Source of the DNA: Chloroflexota bacterium
GTDB lineage: Bacteria; Chloroflexota; Anaerolineae; Promineifilales; Promineifilaceae
NCBI GenBank assembly: GCA_024638855.1
Contig: JAHEJP010000003.1
Location: 1 to 42,562, forward strand
Direction of reading: 5' to 3'
DNA length: 42,562 nucleotides
The position numbers were made by a program, and so were the translations under genes. Shown here in pieces: positions 751 through 24,063 of the stretch. Under the pieces are notes generated by a model. That model was not told the DNA's origin. It saw nothing but the letters and a program-made list of their open reading frames with translations, and searched no databases. Position 1 is the first letter of the stretch, and each line of letters starts with the position of its first letter.

Positions 751-3078
751 ATGGGGGATTTCAGATTTGAGGTCTGGCCCACAGAATATCCAGTCATAAC
801 GCAACATTTTGGGGCTAATCCATTAAATTATGCGCAATTCGGGCTTCCGGGGCATGATGGCATCGATATCAAAGCTCCTATTGGGAGCAAAGTCTTTTGC
901 GTAGCCCCTGGGGAAGTATTCCGGATCAATAATAATCCGAGCGGGCATAATTATGGCATCCACGTTCGCGTCGCTCACCAGGATGGTTACAAGACTGTCT
1001 ACGCGCATTTGCAAAAAGTGTTCGTACGAACGGGTCAAATCGTCGAAGCAGGCACAGTACTAGGCCTGGCTGATAACACCGGCAACAGCTTCGGTTCGCA
1101 TCTCCACATCACTCTGAAGAAGAAGGACGCCAAATACGATAATTGGCCGTACGAGATAATCGATCCCACCCGGTATTTATTGCCTCTGTTAGGGTGGAAG
1201 AAACCGGCCGGCCCGTTTGTCAAAGGCTGGGTATTGGCCGATTCGATCTTCAGCCATGACGATTTGGCTCAGGTTAATGCCGGCGGCGCAACTTTATATA
1301 TCAATCGCGATATTAAGAAACTCATTCCGGCCGGTACTATCATCGTCGTTCGTATGCAGAAGAAGCCATTTGTCCAGGTGAGCGTTTCCCTTGCTGCCAT
1401 TGGCCTGGACGATCAAGCTAAACCGAAACCGGCGGCCGAACCCCCACCAATTGTATCCACTGTCGATGGTTGGGCTTGGAAACGCTTTCTGACCGTTGCA
1501 GGCAAGCAGGCTGTGGTCGGTTCCCACGGTATCAATCTGAGGACTAGACCAGAACGAAATGCCACCAATATTGGCGTGATCAAAGCCAGCAGCACAGTGA
1601 CCATTATCGGCGCGCCAAAAGAATTGTACATACCGGTTCGCGTCCGGCGCAATGACTTCATAGAACCGGTCAACCTACCCGACCCACCTCCCGATCCGGC
1701 CATCATGCCACCGAAAGAAGGTTATTTGGGCTGGGTCCTGACTCAATTTTTAAGCCCCAATGGCAGGCGACAAGCCTTGACTTCCCGCCTTGGCGTTAAT
1801 TTGCGAAGCAAACCTGATAGAACAGGCCAAACAATTGGCCTTGTAAAAGCCTACGCAACCATCAGCATTGCCGGACCAGCCCGCGGAGAATATACGCCGG
1901 TGCTCACACGCAAGGCGGATGTATTGAATGCAATAGATCCAATACCAAACGTGGCCATGCCGGATCCCTGGCCCAAAGAAGCGACGCCGACGGCTCTGCC
2001 CAAGCCTGATCATGATACAACGCCGGGCTGGGCGTTCACCAATGGTCTAGTTGTTAGCGGATATCAAGCCAAGGTGGCTCGTTATGGTAGTAATTTGAGG
2101 GCGTCGCCACAGCGCGACGCGACGAAGATCGGATTCGTTCCCGCGGGCACACCTATCTCCGTGACAGGGCCCGCCAAGGGGGAATATACGCCGGTGCGCG
2201 TACGAGATGATCTTCTAAAACCGCCTATCGCCGACGATGAGGTTTCAGACCCCGATTCTCAGACCATCGGCCGGGTTCGCATCGGTCTTCACGCCTCGGC
2301 CGATCCGCCCATAAGTGAGGCCGAACACGAGGAATTCGCCGCCCTCCGGCCGAGCATCATCAAGGTACTTTCGTTTCATAGCGCGGAGGATATTCGTCGT
2401 TTGGCAAAGGCGCATCCGGAAGCACAATTTATCGTCAGGGCATTTCTTTCCTTCAGTGGTCGCAACATCAGCCCTGGTAAATTCCTTGAATATACGCTTG
2501 GTGATGTCCGTCGCAGCCTGGATCAGCTGCAAGGCCGGCGGGTGTTAGTGGAATTGCACAACGAACCTAACTTGGCTGAAGAAGGCCTGGGAAGTAGTTG
2601 GTCCGACGGCGCAACCTTCAGCGTATGGTGGCGCGAACTGTTGAAGCGTTATCGTCAGGCGCTTCCCAACGCCCGCTTTATTTTTCCAGGATTAACGCCG
2701 GGCACTACCGTGACAGGAGTGAAACTGGATCACATTCAATTCCTGGAAGCCAGTCGAGCAGCTGTCGAAGCGGCCGATGGTCTGGGTATACATGTTTACT
2801 GGTCAGATGTCCATAGTATGGCGAAGGCTTTGGACCAGGTCGACGATTACATCAGCCGTTTTCGTTCGCGAAATATGTGGATCACTGAAGCCAGTCGAAA
2901 GGGAAGGGGTTTGCCGGCCAACCTAATGGCCCAGGAATATCTACGATTCTGGCGTGAGCTACAAAACCGCCCCGTCATCCAAGGCGTCACTTATTTTGTA
3001 GCCTCGGCCAGCAATCCAAAATTCGCCAGCGAAGTATGGGTTGGCAAGGATATTGGGCGCCTGGTCGGCAGGCGATAG
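751..3078 (+). CDS. M23 metallopeptidase / SH3-like repeats / glycosidase-like fusion
   Basis: This 775-residue protein has three parts. Residues 1-145 form an M23 (LytM) peptidase domain with all expected ligands: H35 and D39 in G-H-D-G-I-D, H86, and H117/H119 in S-H-L-H. This family cleaves peptide cross-links in peptidoglycan. Three SH3-like repeats follow at roughly 255-295, 342-380 and 438-480, each built around N-L-R-(T/S/A)-x-P, separated by proline-rich linkers. Residues about 505-775 resemble a clan GH-A TIM barrel: E605 in H-N-E-P-N is the likely acid/base and E713 in I-T-E-A-S the likely nucleophile. The start follows AGGA, and an in-frame TGA at 736-738 rules out an upstream extension, so the lack of a signal peptide appears genuine. 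Substrates are unknown. Confidence 0.85.
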   Translation: MGDFRFEVWPTEYPVITQHFGANPLNYAQFGLPGHDGIDIKAPIGSKVFCVAPGEVFRINNNPSGHNYGIHVRVAHQDGYKTVYAHLQKVFVRTGQIVEAGTVLGLADNTGNSFGSHLHITLKKKDAKYDNWPYEIIDPTRYLLPLLGWKKPAGPFVKGWVLADSIFSHDDLAQVNAGGATLYINRDIKKLIPAGTIIVVRMQKKPFVQVSVSLAAIGLDDQAKPKPAAEPPPIVSTVDGWAWKRFLTVAGKQAVVGSHGINLRTRPERNATNIGVIKASSTVTIIGAPKELYIPVRVRRNDFIEPVNLPDPPPDPAIMPPKEGYLGWVLTQFLSPNGRRQALTSRLGVNLRSKPDRTGQTIGLVKAYATISIAGPARGEYTPVLTRKADVLNAIDPIPNVAMPDPWPKEATPTALPKPDHDTTPGWAFTNGLVVSGYQAKVARYGSNLRASPQRDATKIGFVPAGTPISVTGPAKGEYTPVRVRDDLLKPPIADDEVSDPDSQTIGRVRIGLHASADPPISEAEHEEFAALRPSIIKVLSFHSAEDIRRLAKAHPEAQFIVRAFLSFSGRNISPGKFLEYTLGDVRRSLDQLQGRRVLVELHNEPNLAEEGLGSSWSDGATFSVWWRELLKRYRQALPNARFIFPGLTPGTTVTGVKLDHIQFLEASRAAVEAADGLGIHVYWSDVHSMAKALDQVDDYISRFRSRNMWITEASRKGRGLPANLMAQEYLRFWRELQNRPVIQGVTYFVASASNPKFASEVWVGKDIGRLVGRR

Positions 3079-3106: not shown

Positions 3107-6100
3107 TCAGGCTCTGCCTACTAGCTCTCTAAATCTAGGATCGTTTCGAATGGCTTCCAGATCCGGATCACGGCGCGCCCAATCCAATTGAACCTGGTGT
3201 TTTTCCAGGGCAATCCTCAGGAGATCGATGGCTCGATCCGCGTTGCCGGCGATAGCTTCTACGCAGGCTTGATTGTATTCGCTTTCACCGGCTATGAGTT
3301 CTCGAGCCACCCTGATCTCTTTCTCGTAGTCTCGTTGGCGTCCAAGCCGCCTATATAGTCCTGCCAGTGACCCACGCGATAGAGCATCGTCAGGGTTTAA
3401 CTCGATTGCTCTTCTGTAGACTGATAAGGCTTTCTCACTCTGGTCCGTTGCATTATAGACATCGGCCAAATTAGCGAAGGCCGTTGAATTTTGAGGATCT
3501 AGCTGAACCGCTTTTTCAAAGGCAGCCAGTGCTTCTTGCCAGGAATCGTTATCTCGATGGGCATTCCCTAAACCGATGTAGGTCGCTGGATCGCTCGGAT
3601 CAAGTCGCAAGGCTTCTTTATAATTTTCAATGGCATCATCTCCCCGGCCGAGATCGGTTTGAACATCGCCCAGGCCGCGGTGAGCAGCCGGATCTTGACT
3701 CTCCAGGCGAACAGCTCGTTCAAAAGCACTTAGAGCTTCAAAAGGACGCTTTAGGCCTCGATAGATATTGCCCAGACCGATATATGATGGCGTGTGCTTG
3801 GCGTCTATCTTTAGGGCACGCTGGTAAGCGCTAATCGCTTCGTCAATACGCCCTTGGCGGGTAAATACATCGCCGAGCCCAGAACGAGGGGCTGGATCCT
3901 TCGGATCAAGATTGATCGCTTCTTTGTAAGCTCCAAGGGCGCCATCGATATTTCCCAGGCGAAGGTTAACTGTGCCCATTCCTGTGTAAATGGCTGCATG
4001 GTCTGGCACCAGTCGTAATGCTTGTTCATACGCTAACTGGGCCTCCTGATCGCGGCCGAGTTTGATATATGCATCGCCAATTCCGGCTAGGGCTTCGCCG
4101 TTTTGTGGGTCCAGTTCTAATGCTTGTTGTAGGAATTCCAATCCTTGATCGATTTGACCCTTTTGCAGGTAGGCTGTTCCCAAGCCACTGTAGGTGATCG
4201 AATCTTGCGGCGCTAATTTCTGCGCCCGTTCGAAAGAGTCTAGCGCTTCAACACTGCGACCAGTCTTTAAATACAGCCTTCCCAATTGTTGGTGAGCGGC
4301 TGGATCATTTGGATTTACGTTGATCGCATGGCGATAGGCTGTGATAGCGTCGCTCGACCTTCCCATCTCTTTATAGACCCTAGCCGCTCCATGATACGGT
4401 TCGGTATAATCTTCCTGGCGCTCAAGGGCATATTGGTAGGCTCGTAGCGCTTCATCACTGCGACCTTTGGCTTGTTGTATATTGCCAACCCGATAATAGG
4501 CGCCGGCGTTATTCGGATCAAGTCTTAGGGCTTGCCGGTAAGCATCCAACGCTTCATCAACTTGACCTTGGGCATAATATGTGTCGCCGATACCGGTATA
4601 GGCATCGGCTTGTTCGGGTTGTAATTCCAGAGCCTGGATGTAGGCTGCATTCGCTTCTTCGTACAAACCGGCTTCGCTGCGGGCTCTTCCCAGACAAATG
4701 TGTAGATCGGCCGAATCTAGACCTAAGGCTTGAGCTTGTTGTAGCGCTTCCATCGCCTGATCATATTGGCTCAATGTTAGCAAAGCCTTGCCCAGCCTGA
4801 AGTAAGCTAAACGATTTTCAGGATCGAGCTCTAAAGTGCGGCGGAATCCTGCGGCAGCCTCTTCATTTCGGCCTAGTTCAGCCAAAGCCCGGGCATGACC
4901 ATAATGAGCGGCAGCTTGCGTTGGCTCCAGTTCAATGGCTCGTTCATATGCTTCAATAGCTGCCTCGGGTTGGTTGCGATGGGTCAGAACCCGGCCGAGG
5001 TTATGGTATACAGAGGCGTTCTGGTCATCGAACTCTAGAGCTCGCCGGTAAGATGAGTCCGCCTCTGAAAAATGTCCCAACGCCAATTGCGCGTTTCCCA
5101 AACCTTCATGAGCGACTGGATCTTCAGGCGCCAGGGTTATGGCTTTCCTAAATGCTTTTAACGCTCTTTCGTGACTACCCTGTTCGGCGCAAGCCCGACC
5201 CGCGCCTTTTAATGCGGCCACATTGTCCGGTTCTAGATTTAAGGCCTGCCAGAAAGCGGCTAATGACCGACGTAGATTTCCTAGAGCAGCCTCAACTAGC
5301 CCGGTGCCTACGTAGGAACGGGGGCGGGGGGGATACGCTTCTAAAGCTCGCCTATACATCTCGCGGGCATCATGCTGGTTATTTTGAGCGAGATAGATAT
5401 CTCCTAATCCGTTTAGGGCATCTACATTGTTAGGATCGTCGGCCAAGACTTGTTGAAAGACATTGATGGCGCCGTCTGTCCTGCCTAAGGCCGCATAAAG
5501 GTCGCCTAAGTCATTAAGGGATACAGATGCCGGATCCGCGTCCAAGGCCTTCTCGTAGTTGAGCTGCGCTTCCTCGGGTTGGCCTAGAGCCTGGTAAACC
5601 TTACCCATGCCCCGGTAGGCGGCAGCCATCTCCGGTTCGATAGCCAGGGCTTGGTGATAAGCCTCAAGCGCTTCCTGATAACGGCCGGCAACGGCAAAAG
5701 AATCTCCTAGGCCACGATAGGCGTTTGGATCACTATTATTGCGGCTAGTTGCTGCCTCGAAAGCCGAATGGGCTTCCTCCTGACGGCCTGTAGCCAAGTA
5801 TATATCGCCCAGTCCCCGGCGGGGAGCTGCAAGATTGGGCGCTGTCTCCACGGCCGATCGGTAGGCTTCTTCAGACTCGTCATATCTTCCTAAGGCAGCG
5901 TATACATCACCCAGACCTTGATAGGCTAAGCCATCATCGGGATCGTCTTTGACGGCCTGTTGGTAGTGGAGAAGTGCCGAATCGTACCGTCTCAGTTTCT
6001 TGTATTGATCGGCCAGTTGTTGGCGGGATACCTTAATTGAAGGATTAAGCTCAAAAGCCCTTTCATAAGCACGAACCGCATCCTCGGATCGCCCAAACTT

Positions 6101-9100
6101 AATGTAAACGGCCCCCAGGCCGGCCAATGCCACAGGCCAATTTGGCCTAAGGGTTAAAGCTTGCTGGTAAGCCTCTTCCGCTTTTTCTATTTCTCCGGCT
6201 GCCTCATAAGCCTCTGCCAAACCATAGTAGACGTTGGCGTCCTTATTCTGTAGTTCAAGCGATTGCTGATAGGCCACAATTGCTTCAGGATATAAGCCGA
6301 GTTGTCTTTGAATATCTGCCAAACCTGCATAAGCGCCAGCATCACCAGCATTCAAATCGATGGCTAACCTGTAAGCGGCTAATGCTTCCTGGGGGCGATT
6401 CAACCTACGATAAACGTCGGCTAAACCCCGGTGCGGTTCAGATTGTCCGGAATCCAACTCCAGAGAACGTCGGAAACTGAGCATTGCTTTTTCGTGTCTG
6501 TCTGTTGAAGCGTACAAAAGGCCCAGACTCGTTAGGGGAAGTGCCCAATCCGGGCTGAGTTCGGCCGCCTTGCGATAGGCTTTTTCTGCATCTTTATGGC
6601 GGTTGAGTTGCTGGTAAACATCACCTAGCCCATGGTGAACGGCCGCTTCCTGGCTGTCCAATTCATGAGCGCGTTTATATGAAGCCAGTGCTTTGTCGTA
6701 TTCTCCTAGCGACAGAAATGCCCGGCCTAAGCCCAAGTGAGCGTTCAAATGATATGGGTCGATTTTTATGGCTTGCTGATAAGCTTTCAGTGCTTCTTCG
6801 GCTTGGTCCAGCGTCAAGTAGGTGTTTCCTAATCCAGTATAGGCAACCGGATCCTTTGCATTAAGGGCCAATGCTTGTTGATGGGCATCAATTGCTTCGC
6901 CGGTCCGGCCCAATTCCCCGTAAATGTCTCCTAACTTATTAAATGCGCCCGCGTACTTCGAATTTAGTTCGAGGACGCGCTGATAGGCGCTGATGGCCTC
7001 AACTTTCTTTCCTTGGGCTTTATTTAAATCGCCAAGGGCTTCATAGGCATCAGCCGCAGCAGGATCTAATCGAATGGCTGTATCTAAAGCCGAAGCGGCC
7101 TCTTCAAATCGATTGTGCTGGGTGTACAAACGACCAAGGCTGATATATGGGTCTGGATCATCAGGACTATACCTGATGGCTTCACGATACGTCCGCATTG
7201 CCTGCCGTAACTGCCTGAGCTGGACAAGCGTATTGCCGAGACCGATGTAAGCGGCCGCATATTCAGGATCAATATTGATAGCTCGCTCATAAGCCTCGCT
7301 GGCCGCATTGGGCATGTTGAGCTCGAGGTAAACATCGCCCAAGCCTTTTTGCGCCTGGGCTGCTTCTGGAGCCAACTCAAGCGCCCTTTGGTACGTAGCG
7401 ATAGCCTTTTTATATTGACTTTCTTGGACGTAAGCATCACCAAGACCGATCTGGATATCCGCATTGACCGGATCAAGCTCGATGGCCCGCCAATAAGCGG
7501 GCAAAGCCTTGTTTACCAGACCTTGAGCCCGGAAAACATTGCCAAGTCCGTAATAAGCAGGAGCGTAATCCGGATCGATTTCGGATGCTTTTTGGTACGC
7601 TTCTTGAGCTTTAGCAATATCTTTCAATGCGAATAATGCATCGCCCAAACCAACTAGGGATCCTGGGCTTTCCTTATCACGATTAACAGCTCCCTCAAAT
7701 GCTGACAAGGCATCATCGTAATGCCCCAGGGCCAGGTAGATTTCACCCAGACTCTGGTATGAAAACTCGTAGCTGGAATCTATGCTTATCGCATTTTGGT
7801 GCGCCGCTAATGCATCAGCATATCGGCCGCTAGCCCGGTATGCCTGGGCTAAGTTCTCGTAGGTAGCTGCCCTGGTGTCTCCCAAGAGTATCGCTTGTTG
7901 AAAAGCGTCGATGGCCTTATCGTATTGCCTAGCATCGGCATAAAGCTCGCCCTTACCGGCCCAAGGTATGCCGGCCTGGGGATCTAACTCTATCGCTGTA
8001 TCGATAGCCGTTGATGCTGATTCAGGTCTGTGAAGGGTTCTGTAAGCGCTACCGATACCGCAATAGGCTCCAACACATTGCGGATCGATCTCGATCGCTC
8101 GCTGGTAGCTAGACACAGCATTATCAGTTAAACCGGCCGACAGGTAGGCGTCGCCCAGAGCGTTTTGCACATTTGCCCGATCAACCCCCATTTGTTCGGC
8201 TTCCTGTAAAACTTTGAGCGCCTCGTTGGTTCGACCTGAGGCCAAGTACATTTGGCCAAGACCGATGCGCGCATTAACGAACCTGGCATCCTGCTTGATG
8301 GCCCGTTCATACGCGGAAATCGCCTCCTGAGAGTTGCCCATGGCCTGGTGAATTTCCCCTATACCACCATGGCTCATGGCCGATTCTGGGTCCACCCTTA
8401 AGGCCTGGTCGAAAGCTTCTTGCGCTTCCGCATGTTTGTTCTGCGCTTTATAGATATTGCCCAAGGCGCTATATGATGCTGCATGTTGCGGGTTGATTTC
8501 GAGCGCTTGTTGCAGGGCTTGAACAGCTTCATCATATTGTTGGCCTGCTCCCAGGTTGACGCCCTGTAAATACCAGGCGAAGTGTCGTTTGGGAAACCAT
8601 TCCAGGATTCGTTGAAGGAGTCTTTCGACCGTGACATTATAAATTGGACTATAGCGATCATCTGGCCACAGTAAACGATGGGCGAGTAATTCGTAAGCCT
8701 CGGCTAACTGGACTTTTAGCAAAGTGCCCTCGGCCGGCAAGCCAGCCTCCACCTGTTCAAACCACCCTTGAGCAACGTCGAATTGACCCTGTCGGAGAAG
8801 TTGGTTTCCTCTTAGCAGGCTTAATATCGCTTTTCGTTCTGCAGCATTTTCTCCGTCGAGCCAACCCCGTTCTTCAAGGCGAGTCAACACCCGAACCAGT
8901 GCTTGTCCATCCTCAGTAGCCCTAAGAACTTTATATAGCCGCTCGCTACTTTCGCTCAAGCCTTGCCACTCGCCGATGATTTCAACTAAGCCTTTTTGGA
9001 GATCAGGATTGTAGGCCATGCCCTCGACGTACCTGGGAATGACCCAATGCCAGGCCTGCGTCTCATCAACCCAGAAGTAGTAATGGGCTTGATCCAAGAT

Positions 9101-10615
9101 AGCCTTGGTCCAATAATCGTCCTGGCACCGTTTTTCTAGCAGTGGTAATTCGGCTTCATGGCTCGCCAGGCGCTCCTTCAAAGCCTCGATGGCTCGCATG
9201 TTGAGATCTCTGACCCGCTTACTGGTTCGTCGGACCTCAGCCTGCAAATACTCCTTAAAGAAAACGGCCGGATCATCGTGCAGGCGAGCCCTATCGGCGT
9301 GAACCGAGGCATAGTCGCGTTCCAAACGCCTCAGCAATTCTTCGAGGTCGAATTTTCCGCCATCCTGGGGCTGCAGCATCGCTCGCAGTAGGTCGACATC
9401 GCCCCTGGCCAAAGCCAAGGCATAAAGCGCTTGCTTGTCTGACTCGGCTACAACATGCTGTAGATAGCGATCAGTCATTTTCTGGACGATTTGACCGCTT
9501 CCATATAGATCATGGCTGTCGCCGACAATTTCTTCCAGGGATGCGCCGGCCTTCCATATATCGGCCGCCTCTTTAACAGCCAGGGGAATCCCGCGAGTAA
9601 CCCGGCTAATGGCTTCGACTTCCTGCCCGGAAAGTTCCCGCTCTGGCGCGCAAAATTCGAAATAGGTGCGAATGTCCTCGATGGACAAAGGAAGCATGTC
9701 GTAGGCTAATAAGCGCCGAGGGCTATCGTCGGCGTACCCTTTAAAATATTCGGCACCAAATTGACGGCTTTCCACTAGGTCATTCCGACCGCTGATGATC
9801 CATATCACCCGCGGACCAGCTGCTCTGGTTATCGTTCGGATCCAGATGTCATCGCGGTCGACGATTTCGTAGGAATCGAGAACTATCAAGAGTCGTTGGT
9901 TCTTTGCCACCCGGTCGAAACCTCGAGCCAAAGAAAGGGCGATTTGATCGTAGGGATTCAGGAAAAAATCAAAATGATCGGGTTTTAAGTGGGCTCTCAA
10001 CTGGGTTTCAATCGCCCGCTGAAGCTTGACAGCCTGCTCGGCGCCAACTTTGATGCCGGCCTCCAAAAATGCTTCTACCATCTCTTCGCCTGTATCGCCG
10101 ATCATAGGCAGACGCGTTCGCACTATCTTGGCCAGAGCATCGACGCTTAAACTGCGCAAGATGGCCATCTCATCCCAGTCGTTTTCAGCAGTGATTGCCG
10201 CCGCTACTTTTCGACCTGCTTCCTCCCGCTTCTTTACTGCCTTACGATAGGCAGCAAATTGGCGGCCCCATTTTTTACGAATGGACGCGGCGTGCATCAC
10301 CTTAAAAACAGTGTCAGGATTGATCTGGTCCCGGCCAACCTGAAGCCCGGGAAATTTTTTACGTTCATCTTCCCAGTCGAGCCAAAGAACCTCAAACTTT
10401 CCTGCAAATGGCGGATCTTGCTGGGCAATATCCCTGATTCGTTTGGCCAGGGTTGTCTTGCCTGATCCACCATCGCCGTACAATAAGACGACATACGGCA
10501 AAAGCTCCTTCACAGGTGAATCGAGCACCTCATTCAGAGCGGCGCGAATTTGTTTTTGTTCTTCTACTCGGCCGACGAAGAGTTTGTTATCAACGGTAAT
10601 CGGTTGGTCCGGCAT
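3107..10615 (-). CDS. Giant STAND-type P-loop ATPase with about 51 TPR repeats
   Basis: The protein has 2,502 residues. Residues 1-360 form a STAND/NB-ARC-like ATPase: an F-V-G-R entry motif (13-16), Walker A G-D-G-G-S-G-K-T-T (47-55, K53), Walker B L-L-I-V-L-D (D247), a sensor-like I-I-S-G-R strand and a G-I-P-L-A motif near residue 342. A helical region without a clear family follows to about 670. From about 675 to 2,430 there is an almost unbroken array of 34-residue TPRs, and the end (A-R-R-D-P-D-L-E-A-I-R-N-D-P-R-F) is a typical TPR-array cap. No signal peptide or membrane segment is visible, so it should be cytoplasmic. STAND ATPases typically use their repeats to sense a ligand and then oligomerise. 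Its ligand and effector output are unknown; no known effector domain is seen. It faces two FtsZ-type genes across a shared promoter region. Confidence 0.88.
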   Translation of the reverse strand: MPDQPITVDNKLFVGRVEEQKQIRAALNEVLDSPVKELLPYVVLLYGDGGSGKTTLAKRIRDIAQQDPPFAGKFEVLWLDWEDERKKFPGLQVGRDQINPDTVFKVMHAASIRKKWGRQFAAYRKAVKKREEAGRKVAAAITAENDWDEMAILRSLSVDALAKIVRTRLPMIGDTGEEMVEAFLEAGIKVGAEQAVKLQRAIETQLRAHLKPDHFDFFLNPYDQIALSLARGFDRVAKNQRLLIVLDSYEIVDRDDIWIRTITRAAGPRVIWIISGRNDLVESRQFGAEYFKGYADDSPRRLLAYDMLPLSIEDIRTYFEFCAPERELSGQEVEAISRVTRGIPLAVKEAADIWKAGASLEEIVGDSHDLYGSGQIVQKMTDRYLQHVVAESDKQALYALALARGDVDLLRAMLQPQDGGKFDLEELLRRLERDYASVHADRARLHDDPAVFFKEYLQAEVRRTSKRVRDLNMRAIEALKERLASHEAELPLLEKRCQDDYWTKAILDQAHYYFWVDETQAWHWVIPRYVEGMAYNPDLQKGLVEIIGEWQGLSESSERLYKVLRATEDGQALVRVLTRLEERGWLDGENAAERKAILSLLRGNQLLRQGQFDVAQGWFEQVEAGLPAEGTLLKVQLAEAYELLAHRLLWPDDRYSPIYNVTVERLLQRILEWFPKRHFAWYLQGVNLGAGQQYDEAVQALQQALEINPQHAASYSALGNIYKAQNKHAEAQEAFDQALRVDPESAMSHGGIGEIHQAMGNSQEAISAYERAIKQDARFVNARIGLGQMYLASGRTNEALKVLQEAEQMGVDRANVQNALGDAYLSAGLTDNAVSSYQRAIEIDPQCVGAYCGIGSAYRTLHRPESASTAIDTAIELDPQAGIPWAGKGELYADARQYDKAIDAFQQAILLGDTRAATYENLAQAYRASGRYADALAAHQNAISIDSSYEFSYQSLGEIYLALGHYDDALSAFEGAVNRDKESPGSLVGLGDALFALKDIAKAQEAYQKASEIDPDYAPAYYGLGNVFRAQGLVNKALPAYWRAIELDPVNADIQIGLGDAYVQESQYKKAIATYQRALELAPEAAQAQKGLGDVYLELNMPNAASEAYERAINIDPEYAAAYIGLGNTLVQLRQLRQAMRTYREAIRYSPDDPDPYISLGRLYTQHNRFEEAASALDTAIRLDPAAADAYEALGDLNKAQGKKVEAISAYQRVLELNSKYAGAFNKLGDIYGELGRTGEAIDAHQQALALNAKDPVAYTGLGNTYLTLDQAEEALKAYQQAIKIDPYHLNAHLGLGRAFLSLGEYDKALASYKRAHELDSQEAAVHHGLGDVYQQLNRHKDAEKAYRKAAELSPDWALPLTSLGLLYASTDRHEKAMLSFRRSLELDSGQSEPHRGLADVYRRLNRPQEALAAYRLAIDLNAGDAGAYAGLADIQRQLGLYPEAIVAYQQSLELQNKDANVYYGLAEAYEAAGEIEKAEEAYQQALTLRPNWPVALAGLGAVYIKFGRSEDAVRAYERAFELNPSIKVSRQQLADQYKKLRRYDSALLHYQQAVKDDPDDGLAYQGLGDVYAALGRYDESEEAYRSAVETAPNLAAPRRGLGDIYLATGRQEEAHSAFEAATSRNNSDPNAYRGLGDSFAVAGRYQEALEAYHQALAIEPEMAAAYRGMGKVYQALGQPEEAQLNYEKALDADPASVSLNDLGDLYAALGRTDGAINVFQQVLADDPNNVDALNGLGDIYLAQNNQHDAREMYRRALEAYPPRPRSYVGTGLVEAALGNLRRSLAAFWQALNLEPDNVAALKGAGRACAEQGSHERALKAFRKAITLAPEDPVAHEGLGNAQLALGHFSEADSSYRRALEFDDQNASVYHNLGRVLTHRNQPEAAIEAYERAIELEPTQAAAHYGHARALAELGRNEEAAAGFRRTLELDPENRLAYFRLGKALLTLSQYDQAMEALQQAQALGLDSADLHICLGRARSEAGLYEEANAAYIQALELQPEQADAYTGIGDTYYAQGQVDEALDAYRQALRLDPNNAGAYYRVGNIQQAKGRSDEALRAYQYALERQEDYTEPYHGAARVYKEMGRSSDAITAYRHAINVNPNDPAAHQQLGRLYLKTGRSVEALDSFERAQKLAPQDSITYSGLGTAYLQKGQIDQGLEFLQQALELDPQNGEALAGIGDAYIKLGRDQEAQLAYEQALRLVPDHAAIYTGMGTVNLRLGNIDGALGAYKEAINLDPKDPAPRSGLGDVFTRQGRIDEAISAYQRALKIDAKHTPSYIGLGNIYRGLKRPFEALSAFERAVRLESQDPAAHRGLGDVQTDLGRGDDAIENYKEALRLDPSDPATYIGLGNAHRDNDSWQEALAAFEKAVQLDPQNSTAFANLADVYNATDQSEKALSVYRRAIELNPDDALSRGSLAGLYRRLGRQRDYEKEIRVARELIAGESEYNQACVEAIAGNADRAIDLLRIALEKHQVQLDWARRDPDLEAIRNDPRFRELVGRA
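3300..8590 (-). repeat. Coding tandem array of about 102-bp TPR units
   Basis: This part of the giant ATPase gene encodes successive 34-residue TPR motifs with the usual pattern (A-Y-x-G-L-G-x-x-Y, then A-x-x-A-Y-x-x-A-L-x-x-x-P). The boundaries are approximate. The DNA copies have diverged to similar but clearly distinct sequences, so it is a protein repeat rather than a recent DNA tandem expansion. I estimate about 51 units from length divided by 34 residues. Confidence 0.8.
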
Positions 10616-10860: not shown

Positions 10861-11016
10861 AGCGTCGATATCTTATTGTAGTATCCATAATTGAATACCG
10901 TTAGCGACGATCGGCGGCCTTTCCTTTTAAGCGAGTGCCATTTGCTGTTTTGACCCAGGCAAGACCGCATGATCCAGGCTTATTGTTTATCCATTAGTTC
11001 TTGTTGGAGTATTGTC

Positions 11017-12138
11017 ATGCAGAGGACGCCTGAACTAGACAGCCATGCTGTCATCCGAGTCATTGGGGTTGGGGGAGGTGGCAGCAATGCCGTCGATCGT
11101 ATGATTGGCGCGGGCCTGAGAGGTGTAGATTTCATTTCAATGAACACCGATGGGCAAGCGCTGATTCGTTCCAGTGCGCCGCATCGTCTTCGAATAGGAG
11201 AAAGTACAACTCGGGGCTTAGGCTCCGGCGGTGATCCATCCATAGGTGAAAAGGCCGCCACTGAGTCCATTGACCAGGTTTATGAAGTGGTCAAAGGCGC
11301 TGATATGGTATTCGTGACGGCTGGAATGGGGGGCGGAACAGGCACTGGCGGTGCCCCAGTGGTGGCCCGTGAAGCCCGAGAACAAGGAGCTTTGACAATC
11401 GGCGTGGTGACAAAACCCTTTTTCTTTGAGGGCACCAGGCGTACTGCCTTAGCTCTTGAAGGCATCGAAAAACTTAGGGAAGAGGTTGATACGCTTATCG
11501 TCATTCCCAATGATCGCATCTTAGAATTAACTGATAGGCGCATGACCCTGACGGAGTCGTTCACCTTGGCCGATGATTTTTTGCGCCAGGGTATCCAGGG
11601 CATCAGCGAATTGATCACCGTGCCGGGTCTTATCAACCTGGATTTTGCCGATGTTAAGACCATTATGGCTGAAGGTGGCGCTGCGCTCATGGCAGTCGGC
11701 GAAGGTACCGGCGAGGATCGAGCTCGACTTGCCGCCGAACAGGCCATCAGCTCCAATTTGCTGGATATCACCATCGATGGCGCCAAAGGCGTCCTGTTTA
11801 ATGTTACGGGAGGGCCTGATCTATCGCTATTTGAAGTTTATGATTCAGCATCAATCGTTCGGGAGACAACACACCCGGATGCAAATGTCATCTTTGGGGC
11901 GGTAATAGACGAAAATATGCATAATAAGATTCGGATTACTGTCGTTGCTACAGGCTTCGAACGATCGGAGCTAAGACAACATATGGTGGAGCGTCGAGAG
12001 GTTCAAGAAACGCCGGCCAAACGAAGTGAGCCATCTCCTCCGTCGCCAACAAAAAAGCAACCAGGGCAAAGTGCCTGGGCGCGGCCTAATTTTGCCCAGA
12101 ATGATCTGGCGATTCCGGCTTTCCTTCGCCGTCGTTGA
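11017..12138 (+). CDS. ftsZ: Cell division GTPase FtsZ
   Basis: A complete FtsZ of 373 residues. The tubulin signature G-G-G-T-G-T-G is at 105-111. The T7 loop N207-L-D209-F-A-D212 supplies the catalytic aspartates. The guanine-pocket residues are present: N24 in G-G-S-N-A-V, the N-T-D motif, I-P-N-D, and the Asp following F-T-L-A-D. After a Pro/Ser-rich linker the protein ends D-L-A-I-P-A-F-L-R-R-R, the conserved tail that binds FtsA, ZipA or SepF-type partners. I chose ATG 11017 over the in-frame ATG 10969 because GGAG lies 7 nt upstream and the protein then begins where FtsZ normally does. FtsZ polymerises into the division ring in the cytoplasm. It is not in a dcw cluster here, so it may be an extra copy. 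Confidence 0.92.
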   Translation: MQRTPELDSHAVIRVIGVGGGGSNAVDRMIGAGLRGVDFISMNTDGQALIRSSAPHRLRIGESTTRGLGSGGDPSIGEKAATESIDQVYEVVKGADMVFVTAGMGGGTGTGGAPVVAREAREQGALTIGVVTKPFFFEGTRRTALALEGIEKLREEVDTLIVIPNDRILELTDRRMTLTESFTLADDFLRQGIQGISELITVPGLINLDFADVKTIMAEGGAALMAVGEGTGEDRARLAAEQAISSNLLDITIDGAKGVLFNVTGGPDLSLFEVYDSASIVRETTHPDANVIFGAVIDENMHNKIRITVVATGFERSELRQHMVERREVQETPAKRSEPSPPSPTKKQPGQSAWARPNFAQNDLAIPAFLRRR

Positions 12139-12197: not shown

Positions 12198-12236
12198 GCT
12201 CCCTCTGCCTCATGGCAGAGGGAGCTATCCCTTTTT
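12198..12236 (+). terminator. Intrinsic terminator between the two FtsZ-type genes
   Basis: A perfect 12-bp stem (GCTCCCTCTGCC, 12198-12209, with its complement at 12214-12225) closes a TCAT loop. It is followed by TATCCCTTTTT. It should end or attenuate transcription leaving ftsZ, so the second gene may have lower or separate expression. Confidence 0.75.
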
Positions 12237-12288: not shown

Positions 12289-13344
12289 ATGCAACGCAGA
12301 AAACGATCGCAACAACTGGCCCGCATTCACGTAGTTGGCATCGGAAGCGGGGGAAAGAGCGCTGTCAATGGTATGATAGCCAGCGGCGTATACGGCCCCG
12401 ATTACTTGACCATCGACACCGACGTTACCACTTTTAGAGAATCCAAAGCACGCCAGCATATTCACCTGGGTGAAGTCGAAGCCGTTAGCGAGGGAACCAG
12501 CGGCGAAGCCGCTCGCGGCCGGCGGGCAGCAGCAGGTTCTGTCGAGGCTATCAGCAATGCTTTACGAGGCAGTGATTTGGTCTTTATCCTAGCCGGCCTA
12601 GGGGGTGGTACAGGTACTGGGGCTTCCCCGATAGTTGCCCAAACAGCCAAGGGATTAGGCGCTCTGGTGGTGGGCATCGTTACATATCCCTATCCGTTTG
12701 AGGGAGAAATGAGGGCCACTACGGCTCGGCTTGGAGTAGCCCAGCTCCGGAATTGGACTGATACTTTAATTGTGATTCCTAACGAGCGCTTGCTCGAATC
12801 TTCAGGAGGATCAATCCCATTTCATGAGACTTATCGTTTGGCTCAACAGATTTGGCGTCAAAGCGTTCAAGGAGTCAGTGATCTCATCAATCAATCCGGG
12901 CTCATTAACGTTGATTTTGCCGATGTTCGCTCAATTGTCTCTGAAGGGGGTGGGGCGATCATCGCTACCGGTAGGGCCAGTGGTGAGAATCGCGCTAAAC
13001 GAGCGGCTGAACAGGCCACCCACTCCGAGTTACTAGGTATTACGATTGACGGAGCTCATGGGGTGTTACTTAATGTCTGCGGTGGCGCGGATATGGGATT
13101 GCTTGAGGTAGAGCAAGCGGCCGAGATCATCACCCAACGGACGCATAGCGATGCTAATGTGATCTTTGGCGCGGCTGTCAACCAGGCTTTAGTGGATGAG
13201 ATAAGGGTGACAGTACTGGCCACAGGGTTCACCTTCGCAGGCGCTTCCCGGAACGCTGGTCCCGATTTACGGAAGTTCGTCCGCCCCAAATCTGTCGCCC
13301 CTACATGGCAACTAGAGCCAATTCCCCTTAATCGCGGAAGATAA
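12289..13344 (+). CDS. Divergent FtsZ-like tubulin-superfamily protein
   Basis: The 351-residue protein aligns with its neighbour FtsZ along the whole GTPase core and clearly arose by duplication. The G-G-G-T-G-T-G signature (105-111) and the T7 loop N207-V-D209-F-A-D212 are intact. Several base-binding positions have changed: G-G-S-N-A-V has become G-G-K-S-A-V (Asn24 to Ser), N-T-D has become D-T-D, and the Asp equivalent to E. coli D187 is Gln (Y-R-L-A-Q-Q). The tail is short, basic and lacks the conserved I-P-A-F-L-R peptide, so it probably cannot bind the usual FtsZ membrane anchors. The upstream AAGGCGGG is only a weak ribosome binding site. It could copolymerise with or regulate FtsZ, or build a separate filament; this is inference. 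Confidence 0.85.
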
Positions 13345-22533: not shown

Positions 22534-24063
22534 TTATGGATCACGACTACCCTCTATTATGGCAAAGGGCGTTTGAATCGCAGTTCGGTTGCGTTGTAAT
22601 GGAAAGTCAACACCATCAGGAAACTCGAACTCTTGTTTGAAGCCGCCGTCGATATGCAGTGCGACTAATAGGTTTTTAGATTCGGAACCGGGCTCGATGG
22701 TTACGCTTACATCTCGATGAAAACCGGCCGGCAGCCAGGTCATCCCCAAGATTTCTACTTCTTCCGAATCATTGTTTTTAACTACCACCCAGGTATCGAC
22801 GTCGACGACAATCATAGGAATGGTGATAGTATTATCTTCAGATAACTGTTGATCGCGCGTCACCAGGAAATTACCGGCATCGGTTCGAATACTAAAAGGA
22901 TTTGGCAACCGCTCCTGGTATCGTACCAAGGGATCGGTACGAGGGAAGCCAAACTCGCCCAAATCTTCTAAATCCTCGTGAAGCATCAAATGTAAAATTG
23001 GGGTTACTGCAGATTCGGTGACGCTGATGGCAACCCGGTGGTTTAAGCCGTCTGTTAATGCCGACCAGCCAATGATATTGCCAAAGTCGCCATCTTCGTC
23101 CTGGTAGACGACTATCCAGCCCGGACCATTGCTGGTAGCCCTTTCGACGTGGATAATCCCGTCCAAGGCTGGTTGGTCGACGACGAAGATATCGGGAGGC
23201 AATCTGAGCTGAAAGATAGTTTGCACGGCCAGACCATCAATGACGATTGGCTTGTCTGTTGCGGGATCGTCAAAATGGCCGGGTTCACCAGCATCTATGT
23301 ACAAAACTGCGTGAAGAGTCGGCGTGGCATCAAACCAGTTGATTTTGATGGCCAAATTTTCTTGTTCACCTTTCATAACTGGGGCGTAGCCTAGCATTGG
23401 GCCGGGTTGCCCATCATCGTCGATATGCACGGCTATCCAGGACTGGGTTGCGGCCGTGACATTGTCGATCAACAATGAGCCATCTTCACTCAAATCCTGG
23501 TCCGAAACAGTTACCGAAGGATAGGTAAAGTCAAAATCTACCGCAATGCTCTCTTGTACCAAACCAGATCCGGCCCGAACCGGATTGTCTGGCCCTGGAT
23601 ATTCGAATGTCCCTATTTCTCCTGAATCAACATGCAAACTGACATGAAGAATGGGCGTTGCCTGAAATGGGTCAATAGTTATGGAAATGTCCTGGCTATC
23701 TCCATCGCTCACATTGGTGAAGCCAAGTAATTCGCCAGCTTCGCCATCGTCGTCGGCAAATACCGCAATCCAACTATCGTCTAAGGCGGTCACCAGGTCG
23801 ATGTTCAAGCGGCCTTCTTCTGCCAGTACCTGATCGGAAATCGACAATGAGGCCATTGGAGCTTCCAGGGTATTCGTGGCCACAGGGGTAGATGTGATGG
23901 CCGTAGTTGCCGAGGATGCCGGGCGAATGGTCGCCGTGGCCTTAGCCGTCTCAGACGGCAGGACAGCGTTTTCATTATCCTGGCTTTGAGAACACGCCGC
24001 CAGAAAAATGACTAAGACGATAACCGAAAGCCAACTAGATCTCACTATCCTACGGCCGTTCAC
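22534..24063 (-). CDS. Lipoprotein with four DUF7282-like repeats
   Basis: The 509-residue protein begins with a lipoprotein signal (F-L-A-A-C, C24) and a Thr/Ala/Ser-rich linker to about residue 68. Four repeats of roughly 100 residues follow (about 70-165, 180-280, 290-385 and 395-495). Each has a D-Q-x-L/x-D start, then S/G-W-I-A-V, an acidic turn (for example D-D-D-G-E-A-G, D-D-D-G-Q-P-G, D-E-D-G-D-F-G), L-G, and a T-x-x-L-H-x-x-L-H/Y-x-D strand ending in F-x-x-P. The pattern resembles DUF7282, known mainly from archaeal and Chloroflexota surface proteins of unknown function. The acidic turns resemble Ca-binding loops, which is a guess. It precedes the LysM lipoprotein by 85 bp on the same strand, so they may share an operon. 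Confidence 0.78.
   Translation of the reverse strand: MNGRRIVRSSWLSVIVLVIFLAACSQSQDNENAVLPSETAKATATIRPASSATTAITSTPVATNTLEAPMASLSISDQVLAEEGRLNIDLVTALDDSWIAVFADDDGEAGELLGFTNVSDGDSQDISITIDPFQATPILHVSLHVDSGEIGTFEYPGPDNPVRAGSGLVQESIAVDFDFTYPSVTVSDQDLSEDGSLLIDNVTAATQSWIAVHIDDDGQPGPMLGYAPVMKGEQENLAIKINWFDATPTLHAVLYIDAGEPGHFDDPATDKPIVIDGLAVQTIFQLRLPPDIFVVDQPALDGIIHVERATSNGPGWIVVYQDEDGDFGNIIGWSALTDGLNHRVAISVTESAVTPILHLMLHEDLEDLGEFGFPRTDPLVRYQERLPNPFSIRTDAGNFLVTRDQQLSEDNTITIPMIVVDVDTWVVVKNNDSEEVEILGMTWLPAGFHRDVSVTIEPGSESKNLLVALHIDGGFKQEFEFPDGVDFPLQRNRTAIQTPFAIIEGSRDP

Follow-up and report, generated by a model that had tools for sequence, protein, structure and literature searches.

Assembly of the bacterial division protein FtsZ depends on an active site that is split between two subunits, the GTP face of one being made complete by the T7 loop of its neighbor in the filament. 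A related division of labor operates in alpha/beta-tubulin and in BtubA/BtubB, where one subunit supplies catalysis to its neighbor; an alternating polymer of this kind can be built only if every subunit has two working faces, and GTP binding has been retained by alpha-tubulin. The existence in nature of a 'T7-only' subunit that acts on a partner has so far been considered only in theory, by analogy with tubulin. The residues involved have been defined in S. aureus FtsZ, where N44, D46 and Q48 hold Mg/K waters, G72 and the T7 residues D210 and D213 hold the catalytic water, and the substitutions D46A, N208L, D210N and D213N stop assembly (D46 occupying the column numbered D45 below); it has also been proposed that filaments grow through the top face of the arriving monomer, loaded with GTP (PMC8936486). 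Second FtsZs that alter the dynamics of a partner are found in chloroplasts, in which plant and red-algal FtsZ1/2 and FtsZB/A co-assemble and one partner, FtsZB, is without a defined C-terminal peptide (PMC12343686). Extra FtsZ-like proteins, FtsZl1 and FtsZl2, occur in FtsZ-bearing genomes, and FtsZl1 has conserved neighbors outside the dcw cluster, including vWA, kinase and GTPase genes (Makarova and Koonin 2010, PMC2875224). FtsZ has furthermore been drawn into immunity, since its complex with phage T7 Gp0.4 triggers the defense protein CapRel (PMC13423816), and FtsZ/tubulin domains, like inactive division domains, are rare components of NTP-dependent conflict systems (PMC7159879).

The window analyzed here, to which unprefixed positions refer, is a whole contig (C85; 42,562 nucleotides) of a fragmented 5.3-Mb Chloroflexota genome that is 93% complete and 6% contaminated. 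Its forward strand carries a canonical FtsZ, Z1 (10969..12138, with a likely start at 11017), whose pocket, T7 loop and C-terminal peptide LAIPAFLRRR are all intact, and directly downstream in tandem an FtsZ paralog of 351 amino acids, Z2 (12289..13344), with a degraded pocket, an intact T7 loop and no C-terminal peptide. Transcribed away from this pair on the reverse strand is a giant gene (3107..10615) for a 2502-amino-acid P-loop NTPase, putatively of STAND type (NACHT/NB-ARC/AAA_16-like), with dozens of TPRs, hereafter the NTPase-TPR gene, and convergent with it lies a forward-strand gene (751..3078) for an M23 peptidase with SH3_3 and a glycosyl-hydrolase-like region. The closest relative of the locus, in a Chloroflexi bacterium MAG (UBA11865, DOXE01000093.1), has an identical gene order, and as this is an independent genome of the genus, an assembly or binning artefact can be ruled out. 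An Rfam search of the window returned no match. The host genome encodes two further canonical FtsZs, one in an apparent dcw cluster (C538; ftsA, ftsQ-like, ddl, murB, murC, murG, ftsW, murD and mraY, recognized by eye from protein starts) and one elsewhere (C261), so that the adjacent Z1 is not the sole possible partner of Z2. As a rule, genomes of this Chloroflexota family have a canonical FtsZ in dcw and a second one at another site (e.g. L035:3548-4768 and L036:6684-7868), which is unusual for bacteria.

Overall, Z2 is recognizably an FtsZ. It matches the TIGR00065 FtsZ model over its full length at 312 bits (cut-off 295), as well as the Pfam Tubulin and FtsZ_C models, and it aligns without gaps to B. 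subtilis FtsZ (2VAM), with four other PDB chains also aligned; T1-T4 inserts, a coiled coil or an extra C-terminal domain of the FtsZl1/FtsZl2 type were sought in Z2 and none was found. The AF2 model shows a complete FtsZ fold at pLDDT 80, although T3 is modeled with low confidence at residues 64-68. A Foldseek search with this model gave matches to FtsZ at E 1e-39 with TM scores of 0.83-0.95, the best 50 PDB matches all being FtsZ, and by sequence, too, the best PDB matches are canonical FtsZs. Residue numbers below are columns of what we take to be the E. coli FtsZ sequence, which served as the ruler, while the PDB alignment provided an independent check.

Within this fold the nucleotide-binding elements, all read on the forward strand, are altered one after another. 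The T1 loop (12337..12360) reads GIGSGGKS where the canonical form is GVGGGGSN, with the replacements G20S and N24S (GGGGNNAV to GSGGKSAV against 2VAM), and the T2 region (12409..12432; TIDTDVTT) carries N43D at a Mg-water ligand and Q47T, with D45 retained. The T3 loop (12478..12516; canonical LTRGLGAGGNPE) is degenerate, with R66V, L68E and G71S (LTRGLGAG to AVSEGTSG); in the canonical set, conservation is 90% or more at Q47, at R66 and at L68. In H7 (12832..12846; Y182-R-L-A-Q186) the motif F..AD has become Y..AQ, so that Phe is replaced by Tyr and the guanine-contacting Asp, residue 187 in B. subtilis and S. aureus numbering and 186 in the E. coli column, by Gln. Retained are E138, R142, N165, the GGGTGTG signature of T4 (12592..12624) and the catalytic (synergy) T7 loop (12898..12933), which reads NVDFADV with N207, D209 and D212 intact; 15 of the 24 pocket residues are kept. 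An IPAFLRRR-type C-terminal peptide, of the kind that serves FtsA and other tethers, was looked for in Z2 and is absent, its place being taken by a new tail (13303..13344). The motif TWQLEP[IV]P in this tail, common to Z2 and its closest ortholog (G002; L037:1050-1100), is a possible new binding motif. The gap-free alignment to 2VAM thus bears out the replacements named in the original prediction (Asn24 to Ser, the N-T-D Asn to Asp, and D187 to Gln), and the intact N207-D209-D212 and GGGTGTG and the missing C-terminal peptide were likewise as it described; with the additional losses of T3, Q47, R66, L68 and G20, the pattern is stronger than first noted.

Orthologs of Z2 were sought among 59 relatives, in 52 family genomes and in 396 genomes from the class, and three were found: one in the same genus (G002, 71% identity) and two in the same family (G011 and G029, about 50%). 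Together with Z2 these form one clade with support of 100/99, the four members known all belonging to a single Chloroflexota family. No member was found outside the family among the 396 sampled class genomes (E 1e-130), on which basis a widespread family was rejected, and one further scan of genome contigs returned the UBA11865 ortholog only. A phage origin was also rejected, as the identity of FtsZ matches on viral contigs does not exceed 42%, which places them no nearer to Z2 than ordinary FtsZs are.

All four clade members have lost G20, N24, N43, Q47, R66 and L68 of T3, F182 (to Tyr), D186 and the C-terminal peptide; the Asn and Asp residues singled out in the original prediction are therefore gone from the orthologs too. 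The G002 protein shows almost the same losses as Z2, so that the pattern goes beyond chance. Losses in G011 and G029 extend further, to most of T3, which is deleted, to D45, and to the GGGTGTG signature, which has become GGETGTR and GGSTGTT, and the number of pocket residues kept falls to 12 of 24. With N43 and Q47 absent throughout, and D45 and the catalytic-water-positioning T3 absent as well from these two proteins, ligands of the Mg/K waters have been lost across the clade. T7, on the other hand, reads GL[IV]NVDFADVR in all four proteins, and N207, D209, D212, F210, A211 and G204 are invariant. Counted over the clade, canonical residues are kept in 53/60 instances (88%) on the donor side (T7/S9), in 55/96 (57%) on the pocket side and in 344/524 (66%) in the remaining core. 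For Z2 alone the pocket is no worse preserved than the remaining invariant core (17/23 vs 79/111, p = 1), so that the case rests on the clade; a contrast between pocket and rest emerges when all four members are taken together and when other accessory FtsZs serve as the comparison, and not otherwise.

Two simpler accounts of Z2 can be weighed against these patterns. It might be an ordinary self-polymerizing FtsZ with altered but working nucleotide binding, its changes representing tolerated drift in a specialized paralog. The score above the TIGR00065 cut-off and the Z2-alone comparison of pocket and core would agree with this, as would the retention of D45, E138, R142, N165 and GGGTGTG in Z2 and the G002 protein, which makes residual GTP binding by these two proteins quite possible; the loss of identical sites in all four clade members, and of T3, D45 and GGGTGTG from G011 and G029 while T7 was kept, make it distinctly improbable as an explanation. 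Alternatively, Z2 might be a decaying duplicate on its way to becoming a pseudogene, in keeping with its very patchy occurrence and with an evolutionary rate exceeding that of Z1 (in the two genomes compared, Z2 is 71% and Z1 88% identical). Divergence between Z2 and the G002 gene is, however, 0.23/0.17/0.60 over the three codon positions, and this bias to third positions indicates that the protein is under purifying selection (we judged selection in this way, without a dN/dS ratio, because synonymous sites are saturated). Since the frames are also open in all four genomes, a pseudogene was rejected, and with the T7 loop and the new tail conserved and the same locus kept over a large divergence, decay of any kind appears extremely unlikely.

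The combination of a working T7 face with an impaired GTP face instead leads us to favor, tentatively and with somewhat less than even confidence, a pseudo-GTPase FtsZ that serves as a GTPase-activating cap or sequestering subunit under the control of the NTPase-TPR protein. According to this model, Z2 would have an intact bottom (T7) face while its own nucleotide site would no longer be normally used. Its T7 loop would dock on a canonical FtsZ at the top face, where GTP is bound, complete the active site of that neighbor and trigger GTP hydrolysis, and the top face of Z2, unable to hold or present GTP properly, would fail to propagate the filament. Z2 would in this way limit or disassemble FtsZ polymers, with the divergently encoded NTPase-TPR protein as the likely switch controlling Z2, or controlled by it. 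The earlier suggestion of a subunit that triggers hydrolysis in a partner while binding nucleotide poorly stands as a prediction from the residue pattern; its extension to a tubulin-like heteropolymer in which the adjacent FtsZ is the partner finds poor support.

In such a heteropolymer Z2 would alternate with Z1, the T7 loop of Z2 acting on the GTP of Z1 and the other interface being non-hydrolyzing. The same-strand tandem of Z1 and Z2 and the intact T7 loop speak for this arrangement, and the co-assembling chloroplast pairs, one partner of which is without the C-terminal peptide, offer a parallel. The tandem is known in the window and G002 only, however, and partner genes are not kept together as in a BtubA/B-type pair: in G011 and G029, two of the four clade members, the gene adjoining the Z2 ortholog is the giant NTPase-TPR gene and not an FtsZ. 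Because the constant neighbor of Z2 is thus the NTPase-TPR gene rather than an FtsZ partner, a heteropolymer becomes less likely. Moreover, both tubulins bind GTP and propagate the polymer, and in the chloroplast pairs both partners are still GTPases; from Z2, by contrast, pocket residues are missing, and the loss of top-face residues and T3 is worst where no partner adjoins. A degraded top face, with T3 deleted in two orthologs, is better suited to a terminal or capping role, and we regard the heteropolymer as very unlikely.

A further point against the heteropolymer is a 12-bp perfect hairpin (12198..12225, forward strand) that separates Z1 from Z2 and is conserved in G002 with one T.G wobble. 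It is present in a single copy in the genome, and was for this reason rejected as a dispersed repeat. Its sequence resembles a terminator or attenuator, and it may terminate or attenuate transcription so that less Z2 than Z1 is produced, as would befit a substoichiometric regulator.

The NTPase-TPR gene is present in 17 of the 52 family genomes, and its distribution follows that of FtsZs beyond the canonical pair. Such an extra FtsZ was found in 12 genomes (G000, G002, G007, G011, G015, G022, G029, G030, G033, G073, G074 and G075), all of which also have the NTPase-TPR gene; no genome has the extra FtsZ alone, five have the NTPase-TPR gene alone and 35 have neither (Fisher 3e-8, shared ancestry not corrected for). 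The extra FtsZ is the divergent neighbor of the NTPase-TPR gene in 11 of the 12, the two lying on different contigs in G007. Canonical copies were not found in G029 and G075, presumably through assembly gaps, and both were counted as extra-FtsZ genomes; in the 94% complete G029 the Z2-type protein is the only FtsZ found. A wall-hydrolase-like gene (M23 and/or SH3 with a glycosyl hydrolase) is convergent with the NTPase-TPR gene in the window and at three loci (G007, G059 and G010, the M23 domain lying outside the part of G010 that was read), and points to a role in division or wall remodeling. This convergent neighbor (window 751-3078; L216, L218 and L261) is seen in several genomes, even in the absence of an accessory FtsZ.

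Features of the NTPase-TPR protein itself give rise to the main rival of the capping model. The protein has matches to AAA_16, NACHT and NB-ARC just below their curated cut-offs, weak PDB matches to the Walker A region of NLRP1 and a massive TPR array, and the structure prediction of its NTPase domain reached pLDDT 37. As an NLR-like sensor, it could guard Z2, a mimic of FtsZ that would act as a decoy for phage or other inhibitors of FtsZ, and on sensing Z2 bound or altered would launch a defense response; the pocket would then be dispensable and the inhibitor-binding surface, T7 included, retained. A P-loop resembling those of NACHT and NB-ARC, a C-terminal repeat array as in sensors, the patchy distribution of the gene and the fast evolution of the linked FtsZs are all consistent with a guard and its decoy, for which the triggering of CapRel by FtsZ and Gp0.4 and the rare FtsZ domains of conflict systems are precedents. 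The NTPase is, however, without a recognized effector domain, and perfect preservation of N207, D209 and D212 is not obviously required of a decoy. PADLOC identified no defense system around the NTPase-TPR gene in the window, the gene being matched mainly by TPR-type models, and its neighbors are metabolic and wall genes; a defense island around Z2 thus found no support. One subtilase model was matched elsewhere in the window. Although it is the best of the rivals, we therefore consider the guard and decoy explanation unlikely, and continue to prefer a GTPase-activating cap.

Compared with the described systems, the clade resembles canonical bacterial FtsZ (TIGR00065; B. subtilis, S. aureus) in its fold and T7 loop, and in two members in the T4 signature, but differs in the loss of T1, T2, T3 and H7 nucleotide contacts and of the C-terminal peptide, and Z2 is an extra copy located beside the NTPase-TPR gene rather than in dcw. 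Chloroplast FtsZ1 and red-algal FtsZB, unlike Z2, remain GTPases, are of independent origin and are not linked to an NTPase-TPR gene. FtsZl1 and FtsZl2 lie very far from FtsZ, the T6-H7 region of FtsZl1 not being identifiable, and have other neighbors, whereas Z2 is a paralog of ordinary FtsZ. Similarly, the CapRel and conflict systems employ different sensor proteins, and the Z2 locus has neither vWA-MoxR components nor a known effector. A search of open-access papers turned up neither a pseudo-GTPase FtsZ that retains its T7 loop nor a linkage between FtsZ and an NTPase-TPR gene. Z2 and its orthologs look like natural half-site proteins, which would allow the donor function of T7 to be studied separately from nucleotide binding. 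Little appears to be known of division in multi-FtsZ Chloroflexota, and the linkage would add to it either a new layer of division control or an FtsZ-based form of guard and decoy immunity. The occurrence of an odd FtsZ beside a giant NTPase-TPR gene, here and in relatives, hints at a hitherto undescribed means by which the division machinery is controlled or guarded.

Other accessory FtsZs extend this picture. Those linked to the NTPase-TPR gene are fast-evolving, with long branches in the tree; a single origin of all of them gave an AU p of 0.127, and a grouping of Z2 with the G007/G073-G075 group alone was rejected (AU p = 0.02). The linked FtsZs of G073-G075 are extremely divergent and likewise combine a degraded pocket (N43D, GGGTASA, N165G) with retained T7 Asn/Asp residues (NIDFAD); G073 has two such paralogs in tandem (L223:5728-6840 and 7044-8177), divergent from its NTPase-TPR gene, and others of this type lie at L224, L225 and L226. 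Exceptions among the linked FtsZs are that of G015, which is near-canonical, and that of G030, which has lost D212 (to Asn). The opposite condition, a canonical pocket with a dead T7 loop, is seen in the third FtsZs of three genomes of the order f2 (G035, G036 and G038; L047:4898-6046, L048:4159-5580 and L051:3162-4319) and of G043 (L049:4483-5775), in which 24 of 24 pocket residues are kept and D212 is replaced by Ser, Asn or His, with D209N in addition in G043. One half of FtsZ therefore appears to have been disabled in some cases on the pocket side and in others on the T7 side. It is conceivable, if rather doubtful, that Z2 and its neighbor represent an undescribed module, in which a giant NLR-like NTPase-TPR protein would operate a catalytically one-sided FtsZ with a dead acceptor face and a live T7 loop, switching canonical FtsZ polymers off or using it as an immune decoy; related bacteria would have the reverse arrangement, a live pocket with a dead T7, next to different TPR proteins. 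The f2 third FtsZs adjoin large proteins, TPR-containing in the one tested, together with a protein without a Pfam match. Elsewhere in the window, positions 22534-24063 encode a protein that contains four repeats of the uncharacterized domain DUF7282.
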